Assembly: GCA_017470505.1 (NCBI GenBank)
Contig: JAFUYO010000005.1
Span: 84,759 to 148,758, forward strand
Source: Butyrivibrio sp.
GTDB lineage: Bacteria; Bacillota; Clostridia; Lachnospirales; Lachnospiraceae
Direction: 5' to 3'
DNA: 64,000 bases
Positions 4,329 through 62,887 of this stretch are shown piece after piece. The stretch's first letter is position 1. Every line of letters starts with the position of its first letter. The notes beneath the pieces were generated by a model. It made no database searches. It was given only the letters and a program-made list of their open reading frames with translations, and was not told the DNA's origin. A program made the translations under genes and the position numbers.

Positions 4329-4898
4329 TCAGGGATTTTCGTGGTATTTGTCGTAGAGCTCTGCGAGGTATGTCTTGACGATCTGTATGTTTGACATCTT
4401 ACGAAGATCTGCATTTCCCATCATGACAGAAATCTCATCAGCAAGAAGGAGCATGTTGAAGATCTTGAGCTTGAACTCATCTCTTGTAAGAGCATCAACA
4501 TTGATCTCCATAAGAGGAGCGCCCAGCTTCATCGTTATGTTCTCGTCAGCAATACCTGTCATGACCATGCGCGACTCGGGGTCAAAGTTGACATAGAGGA
4601 TGAGCTGTTCCTTCTCAAACTTTTTGAGAGAAGTGGGAGTCTGGTGTGAGAGCTCCATCCACTCGTAGAGATCGGCTTCATCAGGATTCATGAGGTATCT
4701 GGTGAGCTCTTCCCTGTGCTTGTCAACATACTGCATATATTTGCTGGCGTTAGGTCCTGTGTAAGAAAGATCAACCTTGACGCCGTTATCGGTCTTGACC
4801 AGACGGCATTTCTCAGCAACCTCCTTGATCTTCAAGGAAGTTTCCGTGTTGCCGATCATCTTAAAAGTACCGGTTTCCAATTCCTGTCTAAATTCCAT
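4329..4898 (-). CDS. Conserved hypothetical protein, about 189 aa
   Basis: The family is not recognised with certainty. The protein is soluble, with no signal peptide or membrane segment. The start is set at the ATG whose complement is 4896-4898, because AAGGAG lies 6 nt upstream of it; the longer frame to 4925 has no ribosome site. The middle contains LSYTGPNASKYMQYVDKHRE, the C-terminus DLRKMSNIQIVKTYLAELYDKYHENP. It is a single gene with its own extended -10 promoter, divergent from ftsK and convergent with proB. Confidence 0.7.
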   Translation of the reverse strand: MEFRQELETGTFKMIGNTETSLKIKEVAEKCRLVKTDNGVKVDLSYTGPNASKYMQYVDKHREELTRYLMNPDEADLYEWMELSHQTPTSLKKFEKEQLILYVNFDPESRMVMTGIADENITMKLGAPLMEINVDALTRDEFKLKIFNMLLLADEISVMMGNADLRKMSNIQIVKTYLAELYDKYHENP

Positions 4899-4943
4899 TA
4901 CTATCTCCTTCATATGTTTATGCATGAATATTAAATCAGTGTT

Positions 4944-4952
4944 AGTATAGCA
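4944..4952 (-). promoter_or_regulatory. Extended -10 promoter for the minus-strand hypothetical gene
   Basis: On the minus strand the sequence reads TGCTATACT, an extended -10 element, placing the start of transcription about 40 nt before ATG 4898. No clear -35 is seen, as is usual for extended -10 promoters. Confidence 0.5.
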
Positions 4953-5022
4953 TAAAGGGTTTAAAAATGATATACTAACTAGGTTGAATTATTATATATA
5001 AAGTTTTTGTGACGGGGAAGAA

Positions 5023-8000
5023 ATGGCTACAAATAATAGGGGAAATTCTGGAAGAAAGACTACAGCAAGGAGTACTTCTTCATCTAAAACCAGGTCTGCC
5101 AGGACCAGAAATGTCCAGGAGGAAGAGCTTGACTACTCTTTGAGGAGTGAACTGGTCATCATTGGTATGGTGGCGCTGACTGTTTTTTTATTCCTGTGTA
5201 ATTTTGGCATATGCGGAGCATTTGGAAACGCTGTGAGCAGCGTCCTTTTTGGGCTGTTCGGCTTTACTGCCTATGTGGCGCCTCTTGTTGCGCTTCTCTC
5301 GGTGGCAGTGGGAGTTGCAAACTTCGGATCGAGTGCCTCAAAGCGAAAGATAATATCGGGACTTGTGATCTTTTTTATCGTGGGAATGGTGGCTGAGCTG
5401 CTCAGCGGAAGACCACAGGCGGCTTCATCCTACGACATCGGTGGGATTTTTGCGGGTGCCAGCACGCAGAGGAACGGAGGCGGAATATTTGCCGGGTCAC
5501 TGGCTTATTTTTCCTACAAGCTCTTATCGCTTGTCGGGACGGTACTTGTTCTTCTGGTTGCAGGAATAGTTGCAATAGTCGTGTTCACGCAGCACTCCTT
5601 CGTGGGCGGTCTTAAGATGGGCGGAATAAGGCTCCTTGAAAAGACCAGGGAGGAAGCCGACAACTACAGGGATTATGCGGAAAGACGCCGCGAAAAGATG
5701 GAGCAGCGCAGGGCAGAGATTGAGAGGGAGAGGCAGCTCGCCATCGAACAGAAAGAGGATGAGAAGATCCTCCGCATGGAAAAGAAGGTGAGCGGAGTCA
5801 TGATCGACACCGCCCTCGACAAGGAGAAGGAAGCGGAAGCTGTATCCGATGAGCTCAGCGAGATGCGCGATGAAAAGAAAAATGACAGGAATCTCTTTAT
5901 CCCTGATGAGGACGAGTTCCACGACGACATACATGAGATCACGCTGAAGGATGAGGCAGACAGGGCAATCCGTGCGATTGAGGGCGCAGAAAGCTATGAG
6001 GAAGAGTCTGATAAGGAGTATGAAGAGGAGCCAGGTTACGGATCTGACCTTGAAGTCAGGGCACATGCCATAGTTAACCCGGAGCCTGATGCAAGAATAC
6101 AAACGTTGAGAGATCCTGGTGTTGTTCGAAAATCGGTTTCAAGGTATGAGGATGAGCCGGGATATGAGATGGGGCCGCGCTCCAATGAAGCTGCCCCTTC
6201 TGAATATGCTACTGATATAGAATCTGATCCTTCATACGATCATGACGCTGAGAGAGAATACGAGCCTGAGTATCAGGATGAGCCCATACCTGATGAGGAG
6301 CCTGAGCACGGTTCAGTACAGGACTACGAGCCGGCGCCTGTTCCTTCGCCTTCATCAGATGGGAGAGATACATCACTTCAGAGGCTTGTCGCAAGGGCAA
6401 CAGATGAGTTTGAAGATGAAGATATCCTCCCTGATGTACCTGTGCACGCAGAGCACTTAGGAAACGGCATGAACGGCGACTACGTCATTCACGCACAGGA
6501 TCACATCTCGAGGAGCACCTCGGGAAGCACCGCAATAAACGGTGCGGCTCCTGCAATAAGCAGCACTCCCGGGCCGCACACAACATCGCCCGGAATGGAA
6601 AAGGCAATAGAGCAGCACAAAAAGGCTGTTCCTAAGAAATATATTTTCCCTCCGCTTGACCTTTTGGAGAAGGGCAAAAAGAACAAGAACAATGACTCTG
6701 AGAGAACCCTTAAAGAGACTGCCGTAAAGCTGCAGGAGACTCTTAAGACCTTCGGCGTCAATGTCACTGTCACAGATATCAGCCAGGGACCTGCTGTCAC
6801 AAGGTTTGAGCTTCAGCCTGAGGCAGGCGTGAGGGTTAACAAGATTGTCGGGTTATCAGACGATATCAAGATGAACCTCGCTGCGAGTGATATCAGGATT
6901 GAGGCGCCCATTCCGGGTAAGGCGGCAGTCGGAATCGAGGTTCCCAACAAGGAGAACCAGGCCGTTGCCTTAAGGGATCTATTTGAGTCGGATGAGTATC
7001 AGAATTTCTCGTCGCGACTTGCCTTTGCGGTAGGTAAGGATATTGCGGGCAAGACCGTCGTGACTGATATTGCCAAGATGCCTCACCTTCTGATCGCCGG
7101 CGCCACAGGTTCAGGTAAGTCAGTATGTATCAACACGATCATAATGAGCCTTATCTACAAATCAGATCCCAAGGACGTACAGATGATCATGATCGATCCC
7201 AAGATAGTTGAGCTCTCTGTCTATAACGGGATACCGCATCTGATGATCCCTGTAGTGACGGATCCCAAGAAGGCTGCAGCAGCGCTTAACTGGGCTGTGG
7301 CTGAGATGACGAACAGATACAAGAAGTTTGCAGAGACAGGAGTCAGGGACTTAAAGGGCTACAACAAGATGCTCATTGAGAAGAATGACCCGGATCAGCC
7401 GCCGCTTCCTCAGCTCGTTGTGATAGTGGACGAGCTTGCTGACCTCATGATGGTATCAGCCAAGGAAGTTGAGGATTCTATCTGCAGACTGACTCAGCTT
7501 GCCAGAGCTGCCGGTATCCATCTGATAATCGCAACGCAGCGTCCTTCGGTAGACGTCATCACCGGCCTCATCAAGGCCAATATGCCCAGCCGAATCGCCT
7601 TTGCGGTATCAAGCGGTGTCGATTCAAGGACGATCCTCGACATCACGGGCGCGGAGAAGCTCCTCGGAAAGGGCGATATGCTCTTTTACCCGCAGGGCTA
7701 CACTAAGCCCGCGCGCGTTCAGGGTGCGTTTGTTTCAGACAAGGAAGTGCAGGCAGTAACCGACTTTTTGCGAAATCAGGGGATTGACTCCTCCTACGGT
7801 GCGAACATAGAGGAGCAGATAAACAGTATGCAGGGCCAGTCGGGCGGTGATGCAGGTGCATCTTCCGGCGGCGATTCGGGCTCTGATATGGATGAGTACT
7901 TTGTTCAGGCAGGGAACATTATAATAGAGAGTCAGAAGGCATCAATCGGAATGCTGCAACGAAAATTCAAGATCGGCTTTAACAGGGCGGCCAGGATAAT

Positions 8001-54175: not shown

Positions 54176-54198
54176 GATTTGTATCATAGAAAAAGACA

Positions 54199-54253
54199 GG
54201 GGCAAAAATTGTACATTTTGCCGTGGCTGACCCTTAAGCCGGACTTTTGCCCC
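54199..54253 (+). promoter_or_regulatory. serC leader with two mutually exclusive stems
   Basis: GGGGCAAAA (54199-54207) can pair either with TTTTGCC at 54216-54222 (short hairpin, 8-nt loop) or with TTTTGCCCC at 54245-54253 (9 bp, enclosing a GGC/GCC hairpin). The distal arm lies 9 nt before the AGGAGGAG ribosome site at 54262-54270. This could be a translational switch; no known riboswitch class was recognised. Confidence 0.5.
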
Positions 54254-54277
54254 GTACTGATGAGGAGGAGAAAGAAA

Positions 54278-55360
54278 TTGGCACGAGTTTATAATTTTTC
54301 AGCTGGTCCGGCAGTGCTTCCGGAAGAGGTTTTGAAAAAGGCTGCTGCGGAGATGCTTGATTACAACGGATGCGGTATGTCTATCAACGAGATGAGCCAC
54401 AGGTCCAGGACCTTTGATAATGTGATTCAGACTGCCGAGCAGGATATCAGAGATCTTATGAATATTCCCGACAATTATAAGGTTCTCTTTTTGCAGGGAG
54501 GCGCAAGCCAGCAGTTTGCTGCAGTTCCGCTCAACCTTATGAAGAACGGCAAGGCCTGCTACATCATCACAGGACAGTGGGCCAAGAAGGCATATCAGGA
54601 GGCTCAGAAGTACGGAGAGGCAATCGAGGTCGCATCAAGTGCAGACAAGACCTTCTCATATATTCCTGACTGCTCTGATCTTGATATCCCTGAAGATGCT
54701 GATTACGTATACATCTGTGAGAACAATACAATATATGGAACCAAGTTTAAGACTCTTCCCAACACCAAGGGACACATTCTTGTTTCGGATGTTTCATCCT
54801 GCTTTTTGTCTGAGCCTGTGGATGTTACCAAGTACGGCGTAATCTACGGCGGTGTTCAGAAGAACGTTGGGCCTGCAGGACTAGTCATCTCTATCATCAG
54901 AGAGGACCTCATCACAGATGATGTTCCAGCTTACACGCCTACGATGCTCAAGTGGAAGACTCAGGCTGACAACGGCTCTTTGTACAACACGCCTAACTGC
55001 TGGAGCATCTACATGTGCGGCCTCGTATTCAAGTGGTTGAAGGAACAGGGAGGCCTTGTAGAGATGAAGAAGAGGAACGAGGAGAAGGCGAAGATCCTCT
55101 ACGATTACCTCGATCAGAGCAAAATGTTCAAGGGAACTGTAAGAGCTGAGGACAGATCACTTATGAATGTTCCTTTTGTAACAGACTCAGACGAACTCAA
55201 TGCCAGGTTCATCTCAGAGGCTACTGCACAGGGCTTTGTCTCACTCAAAGGCCACAGAACAGTCGGCGGCATGAGAGCGAGCATCTACAACGCGATGCCT
55301 ATCGAGGGCGTCAGGAAGCTCGTAGAGTTCATGGATAAATTTGAAAAAGAGAACGCATAA
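54278..55360 (+). CDS. serC: Phosphoserine aminotransferase
   Basis: PLP enzyme converting 3-phosphohydroxypyruvate to phosphoserine. With the TTG start at 54278 (AGGAGGAG upstream) it has 360 aa and the canonical N-terminus VYNFSAGPAVLPEEVL; the ORF extends further upstream through the leader, which is not coding. Marks include LFLQGGASQQFAAVP, the PLP-Lys region YGGVQKNVGPAGL and the C-terminal GHRTVGGMRASIYNAMP. It is followed 13 bp later by serA. Confidence 0.96.
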   Translation: MARVYNFSAGPAVLPEEVLKKAAAEMLDYNGCGMSINEMSHRSRTFDNVIQTAEQDIRDLMNIPDNYKVLFLQGGASQQFAAVPLNLMKNGKACYIITGQWAKKAYQEAQKYGEAIEVASSADKTFSYIPDCSDLDIPEDADYVYICENNTIYGTKFKTLPNTKGHILVSDVSSCFLSEPVDVTKYGVIYGGVQKNVGPAGLVISIIREDLITDDVPAYTPTMLKWKTQADNGSLYNTPNCWSIYMCGLVFKWLKEQGGLVEMKKRNEEKAKILYDYLDQSKMFKGTVRAEDRSLMNVPFVTDSDELNARFISEATAQGFVSLKGHRTVGGMRASIYNAMPIEGVRKLVEFMDKFEKENA

Positions 55361-55373
55361 GGGGGAGATAAAA

Positions 55374-56543
55374 TTGTACAATTACAAGTGCTTAAATCCG
55401 ATCGCAAAGGTTGGGCTTAATGGTTTTACCAAGGATTACAAGGCTGTTGACAATGTCGATGAGGCTGATGGAATTCTTGTCAGAAGTGCAAACATGCAGG
55501 AGATGGAGTTCTCTGACAAGCTCCTTGCAATAGCAAGGGCAGGAGCCGGAGTCAACAATATTCCTTTGAGCAGATGCGCTGAGCAGGGAATCGTCGTTTT
55601 TAACACTCCCGGCGCAAACGCCAACGGTGTTAAGGAGATGGTGCTTGCGGCAATGCTCCTTGCTTCGAGAGATATTATCGGAGGAACAGAGTGGGTCAAG
55701 GCAAATGCAGGTGATCCCGAGATTGCAAAGCTCACCGAGAAGTCCAAAAAGAAGTTTGCAGGAACAGAGATTTTTGGCAAAAAGCTCGGTATCATCGGTC
55801 TTGGAGCAATAGGTGTCCGCGTTGCAAACGCTGCGAGACAGCTCGGCATGGAGGTCTACGGATATGACCCTTATCTTTCAATCGACGCTGCATGGAGGCT
55901 CTCTTCAGACGTTAAGCACGTTACCGATGTAAACGACATCTACTCCAAGTGTGACATCATAACAATTCACGTTCCCGCTCTTGATTCTACAAAGGGAATG
56001 ATAAACAGGGACGCCATTGCCAAGATGAAGAAGGGTGTCATCATCATCAATCTTGCAAGAGATATTCTCTGCAACGAGGCTGATGTGCTGGCAGGTATCA
56101 ACGCAGGCAAGATCAGGAAATATGTAACTGACTTCCCGAACCCTACGATTGCAGGACACGACGGATGTATCGTCATCCCTCACCTCGGCGCTTCAACTGA
56201 GGAGTCTGAGGACAACTGTGCCGTTAAGGCAGTACTTGAGCTAAAAGACTACTTAGAAAACGGAAACATCAACAACTCCGTAAACTATCCGAACTGCGAC
56301 ATGGGCATCTGCGACGGACCGAGAATTGCAATCTTCCACAAGAACGTTGCAAACATGATCGGTCAGTTCACAACCGTCTTCGGAGAGGCAGGCATGAACA
56401 TCTCGGATATGACGAACAAGTCCAAGGGCGATTACGCTTATACTCTTGTCGATCTTGAGAGCAAAATCACAGATGAGATTGTTGAAAAGCTTTCAAAGAT
56501 TTCAGGGGTTATCAGGGTAAGAGTTGTCAGACAGGATGTATAA
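55374..56543 (+). CDS. serA: D-3-phosphoglycerate dehydrogenase
   Basis: First step of serine synthesis. The TTG at 55374 (GGGGGAG upstream) gives 389 aa starting MYNYKCLNPIAKVG. It has the NAD motif LGIIGLGAIGVRVANAARQLG, the catalytic Arg, Glu and His regions (ARAGAGVNNIP, NLARD, HLGASTEES) and a short C-terminal ACT-type domain (NVANMIGQFTTVFGEAGMNI) for possible serine feedback. This short form lacks the intervening domain of longer SerA proteins. Confidence 0.95.
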   Translation: MYNYKCLNPIAKVGLNGFTKDYKAVDNVDEADGILVRSANMQEMEFSDKLLAIARAGAGVNNIPLSRCAEQGIVVFNTPGANANGVKEMVLAAMLLASRDIIGGTEWVKANAGDPEIAKLTEKSKKKFAGTEIFGKKLGIIGLGAIGVRVANAARQLGMEVYGYDPYLSIDAAWRLSSDVKHVTDVNDIYSKCDIITIHVPALDSTKGMINRDAIAKMKKGVIIINLARDILCNEADVLAGINAGKIRKYVTDFPNPTIAGHDGCIVIPHLGASTEESEDNCAVKAVLELKDYLENGNINNSVNYPNCDMGICDGPRIAIFHKNVANMIGQFTTVFGEAGMNISDMTNKSKGDYAYTLVDLESKITDEIVEKLSKISGVIRVRVVRQDV

Positions 56544-56580: not shown

Positions 56581-56612
56581 AGGAGAGATTTTATTTTTAA
56601 AATCTCTCCTAA
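56581..56612 (+). terminator. Hairpin after serA
   Basis: A perfect 12-bp stem AGGAGAGATTTT/AAAATCTCTCCT (56581-56592 with 56599-56610), followed by a weak AAAGTTTTG. It may end or attenuate the serCA transcript. Confidence 0.6.
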
Positions 56613-57989: not shown

Positions 57990-60479
57990 GTGAACAACAA
58001 ACTTTACAAAATGATGAACTGGCCGGAGATAGAGGAGATCATCTATTCTGACGGCGACAATCCGCACAGGATACTCGGTGCCCACAAGGTTGGAAACAGC
58101 TACCTTATCCAGGCGTTTCATCCCGAAGCGGTCAGCATGAAGATCTATGTTGAGAACACCAAAAAGACCTTTGACATGGAACTTGCCGATGAAGCAGGCT
58201 TTTTTGCTGCGATAATTCCTTATATTGAAAAACTGAAGTACAAGTTTGTGATCACTGATACAGAGGGGATAGAGTCAAATGTCTATGACCCCTATGCATT
58301 CGAGCCTCTGATGGACAGAGAGGATTTCATCAAGCTCGGCAGCGGGATGCATTTCCATATCTATGAGAAGCTCGGCGCTCACCCCATGAAGAGAGACGGG
58401 GTAGATGGCTGCAATTTTGCAGTATGGGCACCTTCCGCGGCCAGAGTCAGCGTGATCGGCGATTTTAACAAGTGGGACGGAAGGGTCTGCCAGATGCACA
58501 GACTTGACCCTATCGGCGTCTTTGAGATATTTGTTCCGGGTGCAGTACCGGGCGACGGATATCAGTTTGAGATCAAGACAAGGAGCGGTCTTATTCTGAA
58601 AAGACCTGACCCCTATGCGACAAAATCCAAGGGCGAGAACGGCATAATCTCTGTTGTTCACGATATCAAACCCATAAAGTGGACCGATTCAAAGTGGATC
58701 GCAGGCAGAAAGAAATTCGACAGGGACGAAGATCCCTTATCAATATGTGAGATTTCGCTTGAGTCCTTTGCAGGAAGACACGGCGGCAAGGGTACAATGG
58801 ATGAGATCACAAGGGATGTTGTTGAATACGTCAAGAATCACGGCTTTAACACAATTGAGCTCATGCCTGTTATGAAGCATGTGCCGGGACATTTTTATCA
58901 TATCCTTGATTTCTTTGCCCTTGATGATATTTACGACGGCACGGACGAATTCATGAAATTTATAGACACCTGCCACAGTGAAGGGATCAGAGTTATCATG
59001 GACTGGGTGCCTACATTCTTCCCTAAGTCATCGTGCGGACTTTCCGACTTTGACGGAAGGACGCTCTATGAGTACTCAGACCCGAGGATCGGTATTCGTC
59101 CCAGGAGCGGAGACCTTGTCTTTGACTACGGCAGGAAGGAAGTCATCAATTTCCTTATTTCAAATGCTCTATTCTGGACCAATGTCTTCCATATCGACGG
59201 CATCAGGACTTCCGATATTTCGAGGATATTGTATCTTGATTACGACAGAAAGCCGGGTGAGTGGCTGCCCAATATCTACGGCGGCAACGAGAACCTCGAG
59301 GCACTTGAGTTTTTGAAACGCTTTACAACTGTCCTCCACAAAGAGAATCCGGGAGTACTGCTCCTGACCAAAGAGACTGCCTGCTGGCCGCATGTGACTG
59401 ATGAAGTCGACAACGGCGGACTTGGCTTTGACTACAAGTGGAACAACGGCTGGACAAGGGATTTCCTCTCGTACATGGAAAATGATCCTCTCTTCAGGGC
59501 AGGACACCACGATGAGCTGACCTTCAGCCTGATATACAGCTATACCGAGAGGTTTATCCTTGCATTTACCCACGAGGACATCGAGAAGGGACTTGAGGGT
59601 CTATACTATCTGATGCCCGGGGATTCCACGCAGAAGATGGCAAACCTCCGACTTGCGATCAGCTTTATGATGGTGCATCCCGGCAGGAAGCATTTCTACA
59701 TGGAACCCGATGCGCTCACGGTTGATCAGTCTGTATTTGTGGAGAACATGATCAAAAAGCTCAACGACCTCTACGAGAAAAAGCCTGCACTTCATGTGCT
59801 CGACAACAGCGACAGCGGTTTTGAGTGGATAAATGTTCTTGCTTCCGACGAGTGCATGCTTGCCTTTGCAAGGAAGACCGAGAAAGACGACGAGATGCTT
59901 GTAGTTGTCGCAAACATGGCAGGCGTTGACAGGGAATATGAGATTGGAGTTCCTGCTGACGGCAGATATTCTGAAGTATTCAACTCCGACGAAGTAAGCT
60001 TTGGCGGAACAGGCCTTGTAAATGCCCTCAAGCAGGAGGCCAGACGCAAGGAGATGGACGGAAGGACCTACTCGATTTCTGTAAAGCTTGCACCTCTGTC
60101 CCTTGCTATATTCGGATACACTCCATACACTGAGCAGGAGAAGAAGATCCGCGCAATCAAGGAAGAGGAAGAGATCAAGAAAGAGAAGGAAAAAGAGGAA
60201 TCGCTCCTTGCGCTCAGACAGAAACAGAGCGAGGAGGAGGAGAGGATCCTCAAAGAGCTCAAGATCAAGTATGAGAAAGAACTCCTTGAGCAGGAAAAGG
60301 CCATCGAGGAGAAATACGAAAAGATCGAGGAGGAGAGAATATTCTCCATCGTATCTGAGCAGGCACTAAACGGAGTCAAAAAGGCCGCAAAGAAATCCTC
60401 ATCCGATACCAAATCCTCAAAGAGCGCCAAAGCTGCAAAATCCTCAAAAACAGGCAAAAAATCCAAAAAAGACGAATAA
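57990..60479 (+). CDS. GlgB-like (GH13) protein lacking catalytic residues, coiled-coil tail
   Basis: An 829 aa protein built like 1,4-alpha-glucan branching enzyme: N-terminal beta-sandwich, CBM48 (FAVWAPSAARVSVIGDFNKWDG, about 137-160), GH13 barrel (about 240-610), and C-terminal beta domain. Key residues differ: DWVP-x-H reads DWVPTF (Phe343); DGLRVDA reads DGIRTSD (Ser408 at the nucleophile position); AEES reads TKET (461-463); SHDE reads THED (528-530); the EFGQ motif is missing. The tail (about 715-829) is a Lys/Glu coiled coil ending in Lys/Ser repeats. It probably binds glucan without cutting it. Start is GTG 57990 with GGAGG 7 nt upstream. Confidence 0.8.
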   Translation: MNNKLYKMMNWPEIEEIIYSDGDNPHRILGAHKVGNSYLIQAFHPEAVSMKIYVENTKKTFDMELADEAGFFAAIIPYIEKLKYKFVITDTEGIESNVYDPYAFEPLMDREDFIKLGSGMHFHIYEKLGAHPMKRDGVDGCNFAVWAPSAARVSVIGDFNKWDGRVCQMHRLDPIGVFEIFVPGAVPGDGYQFEIKTRSGLILKRPDPYATKSKGENGIISVVHDIKPIKWTDSKWIAGRKKFDRDEDPLSICEISLESFAGRHGGKGTMDEITRDVVEYVKNHGFNTIELMPVMKHVPGHFYHILDFFALDDIYDGTDEFMKFIDTCHSEGIRVIMDWVPTFFPKSSCGLSDFDGRTLYEYSDPRIGIRPRSGDLVFDYGRKEVINFLISNALFWTNVFHIDGIRTSDISRILYLDYDRKPGEWLPNIYGGNENLEALEFLKRFTTVLHKENPGVLLLTKETACWPHVTDEVDNGGLGFDYKWNNGWTRDFLSYMENDPLFRAGHHDELTFSLIYSYTERFILAFTHEDIEKGLEGLYYLMPGDSTQKMANLRLAISFMMVHPGRKHFYMEPDALTVDQSVFVENMIKKLNDLYEKKPALHVLDNSDSGFEWINVLASDECMLAFARKTEKDDEMLVVVANMAGVDREYEIGVPADGRYSEVFNSDEVSFGGTGLVNALKQEARRKEMDGRTYSISVKLAPLSLAIFGYTPYTEQEKKIRAIKEEEEIKKEKEKEESLLALRQKQSEEEERILKELKIKYEKELLEQEKAIEEKYEKIEEERIFSIVSEQALNGVKKAAKKSSSDTKSSKSAKAAKSSKTGKKSKKDE

Positions 60480-60938: not shown

Positions 60939-61838
60939 ATGGAACTAAAAGGTTTTATGGAAGAGGTAAAGGAACTTGTTAATAAAGAGTTAGGTGATGA
61001 CTATGAGCTCGAAATCAAAGATGTTTTAAAGAATAATGGTCAGCTATACCATGGACTTGAGGTTAAAAAGAGCTTAAGCAACATAGCTCCTGTATTGTAT
61101 CTGGATGGCTATTATGAGCAGTATGAGAAAGGTTTGGGTGACATTGAAGGTATTTCGCAGGAAGTGGTCAGAATTTTTAGGCAGCATGAAAAGAATAGTG
61201 TTGATATGAGTTTTGTTACTGACTTTGAAAATGTCAGGGATAACATCATGGTAAAAGCAATAAATTTTGAAGGAAATGCAAAATTATTAGAAGGTCTGGT
61301 ATACGAGAAATATCTTGATCTTGCCATGGTTTATTATATTGGTGTTGATTTTCCTGTTGATGGTGCAGGGTGTATCATGGTAAAGAAAGAGATGCTTAAG
61401 ACATGGGGAATCAGAAAGTCTGAGCTACGTGTTGCAGCCAAGGAAAATATGAAAAAACAGCCCTATAAACTGGAAAACATATTTGACCTTATAATCAAAA
61501 TAAACGGACTTGACGGGGAACAGCTGTATCCTGAAGAAATGCGCGGAGAAAATGGAGATGTGTTTGTTTTATCAAATTCGGATAGGCTGTATGGAGGCAG
61601 GTTGTTGTTCGAAATTGACAAGTTGAGTGAATTAGCAGACAAGTTAGGAAAGTGCTTCTATATCATACCCAGCAGCATACATGAACTTATTTTGATAAAG
61701 GATGATGGGATATGCGAGTTAGAGCATTTAAAGGATATGGTACATGAAGTCAACAGAACAGCAGTAATGCCGGAAGAGGTGCTTAGTGATAATGTTTATG
61801 TTTACGATAATACTATAAAGAGTGTAAGCATTGCATGA
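60939..61838 (+). CDS. DUF5688-family protein
   Basis: A 299 aa soluble protein of a family common in Lachnospiraceae and of unknown function. Recognisable parts are the N-terminal amphipathic helix, NNGQLYHGLEVKK, and the C-terminal VLSNSDRLYGGRLLFEIDKL, FYIIPSSIHELILIKDD and VMPEEVLSDNVYVYD. No membrane segments. It is the first gene of an A+T-richer stretch downstream of the tRNA and is monocistronic, with its own promoter and terminator. Confidence 0.8.
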   Translation: MELKGFMEEVKELVNKELGDDYELEIKDVLKNNGQLYHGLEVKKSLSNIAPVLYLDGYYEQYEKGLGDIEGISQEVVRIFRQHEKNSVDMSFVTDFENVRDNIMVKAINFEGNAKLLEGLVYEKYLDLAMVYYIGVDFPVDGAGCIMVKKEMLKTWGIRKSELRVAAKENMKKQPYKLENIFDLIIKINGLDGEQLYPEEMRGENGDVFVLSNSDRLYGGRLLFEIDKLSELADKLGKCFYIIPSSIHELILIKDDGICELEHLKDMVHEVNRTAVMPEEVLSDNVYVYDNTIKSVSIA

Positions 61839-62019: not shown

Positions 62020-62319
62020 ATGAGTAATTTAGCATTATTAAGAAAGAGAGGTGCTACTATGGTTGAATCTAAACTAACAATAGATGACCTGAAGGTTGGA
62101 ATGCACGTAGTACCTGAGCAACTGTCAGATCTTTATGGAGTCTGGGTATTTATTAATCCAGAAACAGCAACGAAGGAAGGCTTTGATATACTGTATTTTT
62201 GTGATGAAAACACAAAAGATGATAGAGAAATAGAAAAGATACAAAAGCAGTATGGTAAGACAACAGTCATTTTCCAGCCAAAATTCTATGAAGACGAGGA
62301 CGCTGCAATATATGACTGA
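62020..62319 (+). CDS. Small hypothetical protein
   Basis: Up to 99 aa. ATG 62020 has GGAG 4 nt upstream; ATG 62059 (86 aa, starting MVESKLTIDDLKVGM) has GAGG at a better distance and gives a more natural N-terminus. The protein is acidic and soluble, with no known motif. It overlaps the protease-like gene downstream by 8 bp, so the two are translationally coupled. Confidence 0.55.
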   Translation: MSNLALLRKRGATMVESKLTIDDLKVGMHVVPEQLSDLYGVWVFINPETATKEGFDILYFCDENTKDDREIEKIQKQYGKTTVIFQPKFYEDEDAAIYD

Positions 62320-62887
62320 TTTTTTGGAAATAGAATTAACCAAGAGCTTAGAGTTTAGGTGCGATTTTAAGTCTGATATTTATGGGATTCATGGAGAATC
62401 AATATTTTTTCCAAGCATAAGGCAATCTGGAATAAAGATAGATACTGGAGCTCATGGGATTTTAATCCCATTACGGACACTGTGTTGGACGGATTCTCAA
62501 ATCAAAAAACTCTTGGATGATGCTGTTAAACATAGTAGAAAGAGCCTATCCGTTATAAATGGCGTAGAAAGTGTTAATAACATTTCAAGCGCTCAGCTTA
62601 GAAATGAATCTGAGAGTTTCATAAAAAGCTATAAAGGTGTTGCTATAAGCATACTTGCAGATAAGATTGTTGTTGGTGATCTTGAGTTTAAAGATGTCCC
62701 AGTAAGGGTAACACCACACACAACTGGAAATATCTTGCTTGGCATGGATGTCATAAAAAAGATGGATAATCATATAGGCACAAGCAGAATTACAGGAGAA
62801 ACGACCTTGTTAGCCTGTCCGGAAGATGCAATTAGCCAAGGGTATTTGGATGCATTGGACAAGCATTTTGGAATCAAAATGATATAG
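62312..62887 (+). CDS. Retropepsin-like aspartic protease-fold protein
   Basis: About 191 aa from ATG 62312. IKIDTGAHGILIPL carries the Asp-Thr-Gly-Ala motif (Asp44) of single-domain clan AA proteases, and the later NILLGMDVIKKM matches the second hallmark (hydrophobic-hydrophobic-Gly) before the C-terminal helix. Such enzymes dimerise to form the active site. Substrate unknown. An earlier in-frame ATG (62252) lies within the upstream gene and is unlikely. It is coupled to the small gene before it. Confidence 0.7.
   Translation: MTDFLEIELTKSLEFRCDFKSDIYGIHGESIFFPSIRQSGIKIDTGAHGILIPLRTLCWTDSQIKKLLDDAVKHSRKSLSVINGVESVNNISSAQLRNESESFIKSYKGVAISILADKIVVGDLEFKDVPVRVTPHTTGNILLGMDVIKKMDNHIGTSRITGETTLLACPEDAISQGYLDALDKHFGIKMI

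Follow-up and report, generated by a model that had tools for sequence, protein, structure and literature searches.

A branching-enzyme paralogue of Butyrivibrio that has lost its catalytic residues and is probably retained for a role other than branching glycogen

The window analysed here is a stretch of 64,000 nucleotides from Butyrivibrio sp. (Lachnospiraceae; GenBank assembly GCA_017470505.1, contig JAFUYO010000005.1, positions 84,759 to 148,758 of the forward strand). The gene in question, located at 57,990–60,479 of the window on the same strand, encodes a protein of 829 amino acids that is related to glycogen branching enzymes (GlgB). Since this sequence is strongly preserved without the catalytic site and similar losses were repeated in related bacteria, its function is probably not the branching of glycogen. 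Among the explanations weighed below, we lean with modest confidence towards a catalytically dead branching-enzyme paralogue that would be kept because it serves in structure or regulation, most likely in docking to or organising glycogen. As judged from sequence comparison, the protein forms one branch of a paralogue present in Lachnospiraceae, herein referred to as GlgB2, the gene of which often follows serC, serA or a gene encoding a DUF1015 protein. An original prediction, made from the nucleotide sequence of the window, had already described a branching-enzyme-like protein with a dismantled active site and a basic coiled-coil tail; membership of a family-wide paralogue with repeated losses goes beyond that finding.

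The open reading frame is complete and starts with GTG, directly 5' of which GGGAGGGC forms a purine-rich, Shine-Dalgarno-like stretch. Its product shares an N1 domain, a CBM48, a barrel (here degenerate) and a C-terminal domain with type 1 bacterial GlgBs, i.e. the branching enzymes of GH13 subfamily 9, such as the Cyanothece enzyme 5gqz. The Pfam matches, all above cut-off, follow this order: GlgB_N (PF22019, residues 11–102, 58,020–58,295; 93.8 bits for the whole protein), CBM_48 (PF02922, residues 127–210, 58,368–58,619), Alpha-amylase (partial, residues 263–341 only) and Alpha-amylase_C (PF02806, residues 613–708, 59,826–60,113). In a phmmer alignment to 5gqz that spans residues 12–265 and 272–723 and is free of gaps around the three catalytic motifs, the nucleophile Asp is replaced by Ser408 (codon at 59,211–59,213), the acid/base Glu by Lys461 (59,370–59,372; the AEES motif reads TKET) and the transition-state stabiliser Asp by Glu529 (59,574–59,576; THED at the position of SHDE). 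Furthermore, Phe343 takes the place of the conserved His after DWVP, and a run of 16 positions in 5gqz, including the EFGQ loop, lacks a counterpart. The catalytic positions of 5gqz would fit D434, E487 and D555 once a construct offset of 20 residues is subtracted. All of these changes, as well as the secure register, had been read by eye in the original prediction, and the alignment agrees with each of them. In contrast to type 1 GlgB, the protein thus lacks the catalytic residues and the EFGQ loop, while it adds an N-terminal signature and a coil with a basic tail. From these comparisons we infer that it would be unable to branch glycogen.

The same losses characterise the genus. Full-length counterparts with 54–82% identity were found in 33 of 36 other Butyrivibrio genomes, and the three genomes without one are 60%, 72% and 72% complete. 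The resulting clade set comprises 66 distinct sequences, a few of them labelled Lachnospiraceae only. The catalytic triad is absent from every counterpart of the genus that was read, and from all 66 clade sequences, in which the three positions read SKE (41), AKE (10), PKE (5), TKE (5), PRD (4) or SRD (1); a search for homologs with shared losses, suggested alongside the original prediction, accordingly returned a clade that is uniformly devoid of the triad. This set also bears on the possibility that branching activity persists through a register shift of one residue, in which Asp409, Glu462 and Asp530 would take over catalysis; catalytic geometry of these three residues had been named as the alternative that could overturn the original prediction. 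Asp409 and Glu462 are indeed invariant in 66/66 sequences. However, Glu462 is the second Glu of AEES and is equally present in all 68 live (triad-retaining) GlgB2 copies, so that its presence is not diagnostic, and position 530 is Asp in only 37/66 clade sequences and otherwise Glu, Asn, Ala, Val or Leu. Together with the gapless alignment at the three motifs and the loss of the His at position 343, of the EFGQ loop and of numerous further core invariants, this makes a register-shifted active enzyme highly improbable.

Codon comparisons show the clade to be under strong purifying selection. The median dN/dS (Nei–Gojobori) amounts to 0.040 for 30 pairs with dS<1.2, drawn from all pairs of 65 sequences; among 25 of these pairs listed, six reach at least 0.08 (maximum 0.457), all between divergent PRD, SRD or PKE rows. 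Regional medians are 0.054 for the N-terminal part, 0.016 for CBM48, 0.023 for the barrel and 0.057 for the C-terminal domain. They are followed by 0.029 (25 pairs) for a Lys/Glu-rich stretch that by composition is a putative coiled coil (residues 712–790, 60,123–60,359) and 0.213 (22 pairs) for the fast-evolving Lys/Ser/Ala-rich basic tail (residues 791–829, 60,360–60,476). The short GlgBs yielded only three usable pairs (0.037–0.201), too few for a comparison. At least 60 residues past position 711 are present in 65/66 clade members, and their last 40 residues carry a median net charge of +11, in line with the coil and basic tail of the original prediction, the coil being assigned by composition. 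Because of the low median dN/dS, the protein is best regarded as a preserved pseudoenzyme rather than as a product of decay: its catalytic residues are lost and its sequence is under purifying selection, with the fold assigned by homology only. A redundant copy on its way to loss might seem plausible, as the active-site residues disappeared beside a second GlgB. Such decay is nevertheless rejected by the dN/dS of about 0.04 and the conservation throughout the genus, where long open frames persist; dead copies are also kept across species in two further genera (see below), and among the explanations considered this is the one to which we attach the least probability.

The replaced residues are concentrated in the cleft motifs. 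Of the 175 core positions that vary neither in live GlgB2 nor in short GlgB, the clade has replaced 58, namely 53/133 in the barrel, 5/30 in CBM48 and 0/12 in the C-terminal domain; this scoring does not extend to the N1 domain, which is missing from short GlgB. Within the cleft motifs, whose ranges were chosen by the analyst, 37 positions are replaced and 17 kept (37/54), versus 21 replaced and 100 kept elsewhere (21/121; Fisher p 7e-11). In addition, Asp409, Lys/Arg461, Cys465, Asn486 and an acidic residue at 529 are fixed in 66/66 clade sequences, while the 68 live copies carry Ala/Ser, Glu, Ala/Ser, Met/Val and Asp at the respective positions. Conceivably, the pocket was rebuilt on these five residues for another reaction or for binding of a small ligand. 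Yet the invariant Lys/Arg461 and acidic 529 may form just a stabilising salt bridge, and the triad was lost along many different routes in the other genera with dead copies (GDQ, NED, NNS, AEE, CTE and others), which makes it unlikely that any new chemistry is shared beyond the Butyrivibrio clade. We therefore regard a new enzyme as improbable, albeit far less so than a shifted active site.

Branching itself could be provided by a paralogue. The genome that contains the window (assembly of 2.75 Mb in 56 contigs, 84% complete) encodes a second, short GlgB of 664 amino acids on contig C36 with intact motifs (DWVPAHF, GLRVDAV, AEEST, LSHDEV and MGQEFGQ), as well as a Glyco_transf_5 domain of the glycogen synthase type on contig C53. 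An intact second glgB had been put forward as a check on the original prediction, and its detection points to an active paralogue in the same genome, as predicted from the intact motifs. The pattern extends to other genomes: the triad is intact in 20/20 short Butyrivibrio GlgBs read, and a second GlgB with intact motifs occurs in 17/17 family genomes that have a dead or degenerate copy, although in one of them (G070) it is spread over two frames. Taken together with the dN/dS of about 0.04, the genus-wide conservation and the replaced invariant pocket residues, the intact second GlgB supports well the selected non-enzymatic role that had been proposed. As a separate observation, the open reading frame directly before the intact glgB1 on contig C36 (L067, 174–2372) contains some 12 repeats of the ATGTLPTAE type, and its C-terminal half appears AAA-like by eye.

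To place the protein within its family, one genome from each of 120 Lachnospiraceae genera, Butyrivibrio included, was surveyed. GlgB-like matches at E <=1e-100 were obtained in 113/120 genomes, many of which have two, often one long and one short. The 79 stretches fetched represent the higher-scoring long matches, and further dead copies may thus have escaped. They comprise 48 live copies plus two more (L149 and L151) that belong to neither the set of 48 nor that of 68, 12 canonical long GlgBs, 16 copies in which at least one triad residue is lost, and the degenerate L132. GlgB2 is therefore intact in most family copies read (48/65). The 16 dead triads read GDQ, NED (2), TED (2), NNS, AEE, CTE, HDE, SKD, RAK, IEK, TDE and TES, and two are gapped; these calls derive from MAFFT alignments and are least certain for the most diverged rows. 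L132 (G101, 4883–7288) retains the triad letters and was hence scored as live by the triad columns; its surrounding motif residues are lost, with SIDD in place of SHDE and DWTL in place of DWVP, and it may be on its way to losing activity. In G086, the triad of a dead copy (L092/L235) is altered only at the nucleophile, where Asn replaces Asp (GLRLNGI); this copy retains AEEAT and LSHDE, has DWVPSQ in place of DWVPAH and, by its motifs, appears to be at an early stage of loss. A dead GlgB2 copy of G070 (L150, 2782–5646) ends in a long tail of near-identical GGKAAGAAGGIRDKA-type repeats.

Phylogenetic analysis points to several independent losses. Trees were built with the catalytic-motif columns masked and the tail removed, a quick one from 101 of 197 sequences and a careful one from 63, which omitted 38 rows, including the five longest dead branches (L141 and L145–L148) and near relatives of kept rows. 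Both require eight changes of the live/dead label, of which at least five are forced by starred branches in the quick tree and at least six are forced in the careful tree. A single loss common to all dead copies is rejected, as their single origin occurred in 0/200 bootstrap trees of the careful analysis and holding all 20 dead rows together cost 235 log-likelihood units (p-AU 6e-06, or 5e-06 with L132 added). The number of losses is approximate, with the bootstrap not fully settled and some dead branches long. Dead copies are also retained across species, namely in 5/5 genomes of genus g39 and 14/14 read (of 15) of genus g141, where L265, whose true frame is seen at the N-terminus only, was left out of the motif count, and five usable pairs from these two genera gave dN/dS values of 0.05–0.10. 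Whether redundancy predicts loss was assessed by a hand count, in which genomes limited to one 1e-100 match made up 1/17 of those with a dead or degenerate copy versus 10/48 of those with a live one, a difference too weak to support a claim; the one exception among the former is G070 with its further, frame-split GlgB.

If GlgB2 had a second function, the parts that stay constant after independent losses should mark its site, and the contrast of live and dead copies within one orthologous lineage amounts to a natural experiment in this respect. A signature near residues 5–15 (LYKxMNWPEIE) lies in the N-terminal region of the window protein (residues 1–34, MNNKLYKMMNWPEIEEIIYSDGDNPHRILGAHKV, 57,990–58,091). 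A corresponding regular expression, [LM]Y..(M/L/C)(N/D/S)(W/Y)..(I/V/M)(E/D), which was written after the sequences were seen and is thus descriptive, matches the window protein, 66/66 clade sequences, 16/16 other dead copies, L132 (1/1) and 56/68 live copies, and is found in 0/12 canonical long GlgBs of the family and 0/8 long GlgBs of other families. For the 17 copies from other genera that are dead or degenerate, conservation differs strongly by region: pairwise identity in the signature (residues 5–20) is 0.603 versus 0.621 in live copies, whereas it drops to 0.317 versus 0.917 in the catalytic motifs, 0.372 versus 0.707 in the barrel and 0.553 versus 0.707 in CBM48 (residues 143–210). Because identity holds in the signature while it declines in these other parts, the shared constraint appears to sit most clearly in the N-terminal module. 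A search for the signature elsewhere in the window's genome as a docking motif matched only the glgB2-like gene itself in this 84% complete assembly.

On this basis, a sequence of events can be proposed. GlgB2 may have had a second, non-catalytic function before the active-site losses, carried by the N-terminal module (N1 and signature helix) and, in Butyrivibrio, possibly aided by the coil and the basic tail. With branching supplied by GlgB1, catalysis in GlgB2 could then have become dispensable. What most likely remains would be a protein that oligomerises, docks on glycogen or one of its enzymes, and thereby organises or regulates glycogen synthesis or breakdown, a job comparable to that of the non-catalytic ISA2 in plant starch and to the one proposed there for the coiled-coil protein At5g39790. 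A broader proposal, which we hold somewhat less firmly than the one for the window protein and offer tentatively, is that N-terminal docking or scaffolding is the conserved function of the second GlgB lineage throughout the Lachnospiraceae, that the active site was lost about six or more times beside another GlgB, and that bacteria thereby arrived several times at an equivalent of the starch proteins without catalytic activity that plants possess.

Several observations weigh against a glycogen-bound scaffold of this kind. The signature expression is missed by 12/68 live copies, of which eight seem to carry closely related variants, three (L116, L122 and L126) are seemingly without the signature, and one (L110) is covered too short. 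A tail of at least 60 residues, which occurs in 48/68 live copies, 1/12 canonical long GlgBs and 0/17 short GlgBs, is present in only 7/16 other dead copies and is short or absent in several; it is hence not essential to the shared role, and as a feature common to dead copies it finds no support outside Butyrivibrio. In CBM48, Lys192, which is 99–100% conserved in live GlgB2 and short GlgB and kept in 75% of other dead copies, is Gln in 98% of the clade, which disfavours an unaltered glucan site in this domain; the matching Lys of the AMPK-beta CBM48 contacts glycogen. The glycogen scaffold or sensor that the original prediction gave as examples of a non-enzymatic role would thus be candidate functions. 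The flanking genes, i.e. serine genes, DUF1015 and DUF5688, include no glycogen genes. Finally, the count of label changes alone cannot separate loss from regain; they were read as losses since it is implausible that a complete triad would be regained.

Some of these points would fit a pseudoenzyme with a role outside glycogen, for instance in binding of nucleic acids or membranes via the basic tail, or in connection with the serine genes or DUF1015. In the window, serC and serA (54,179–56,543), so named from their sequences and from the original prediction, are followed by a DUF1015 gene (PF06245, 56,659–57,909) directly upstream of the glgB2-like gene, all on the forward strand. The DUF1015 gene holds this position in 25/33 Butyrivibrio loci of other genomes, and the stretches examined around the family copies contain serC, serA and/or DUF1015 for 23/48 live and 11/17 dead or degenerate copies versus 0/12 canonical long GlgB loci, counts that were made by hand and are lower bounds since some loci stop at contig ends. 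The Lys-rich tail and the Lys192 replacement could be accommodated as well. On the other hand, eight of the 33 Butyrivibrio loci (L026–L033, of the AKE type) are without the serine/DUF1015 synteny, one of them even with about 8 kb of upstream sequence in view (L074), CBM48 is the slowest-evolving region of the clade (0.016), and it is the basic tail that changes fastest (0.213). We thus consider a role unrelated to glycogen rather unlikely, if still the most credible of the rivals to a glycogen-organising protein. The synteny supports orthology of the live and dead copies, though it is not seen at half of the live loci.

In plants, storage glucan is known to be shaped in part by paralogues that have no catalytic activity. 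The Arabidopsis protein At5g39790 (PTST) is not known to have a GH13 barrel or any homology to GlgB beyond its carbohydrate-binding module. It resembles the window protein in combining a carbohydrate-binding domain with a coiled coil, and it is proposed to be a regulatory scaffold on starch (PMC2653042). ISOAMYLASE 2 (ISA2), likewise from plants, is a non-catalytic paralogue kept beside an active alpha-glucan enzyme and is reported to be bound by its paralogue ISA1 (PMC12510319); in contrast to GlgB2, ISA2 is eukaryotic and belongs to a debranching-enzyme family. In Chlamydiae, GlgA-GlgB fusions differ in that their loss of branching is ascribed, in the passages covered, to an N-terminal glycogen synthase extension and not to lost residues (PMC7935935). 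No bacterial branching-enzyme pseudoenzyme was found among the matches listed in our search of the open-access literature; the part of a review on prokaryotic alpha-glucan enzymes that was covered contains neither 'pseudoenzyme' nor 'Butyrivibrio' (PMC11046441), and a term check of the accessible part of a paper on the N-termini of glycogen branching enzymes gave no occurrence of 'inactive' (PMC6339891). The closest entry is glgB2 of Butyrivibrio hungatei MB2003 (bhn_I1458, 824 amino acids, GH13/CBM48), which is tabled as a 1,4-alpha-glucan branching enzyme beside a glgB1 of 663 amino acids, the lost active site being unmentioned in the passages covered (PMC5716241). By genus, name, size and domains, bhn_I1458 is very probably an ortholog of the gene described here. 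Automated annotation can be expected to label the window protein in the same manner, and thereby to miscount enzymes in metabolic models of the rumen, because it passes the NCBIfam cut-offs of TIGR01515 (584 versus 464) and PRK12313 (608 versus 577); its score for PRK05402 is below cut-off (633 versus 741).

With regard to expression, a terminator-like hairpin (56,581–56,610) between serA and the DUF1015 gene gives a hint that DUF1015 and glgB2 are possibly transcribed separately from the serine genes, although such sites also arise by chance (8 in the scan versus 5.9 expected). A promoter scan was uninformative (13 sites versus 11.5 expected), and no tandem repeats were found within the glgB2-like gene. 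Downstream of it, a DUF5688 protein is encoded at 60,939–61,838, and a small open reading frame at 62,252–62,887 gave a weak match, below cut-off, to a retroviral-type aspartyl protease (gag-asp_proteas, E 4e-05).

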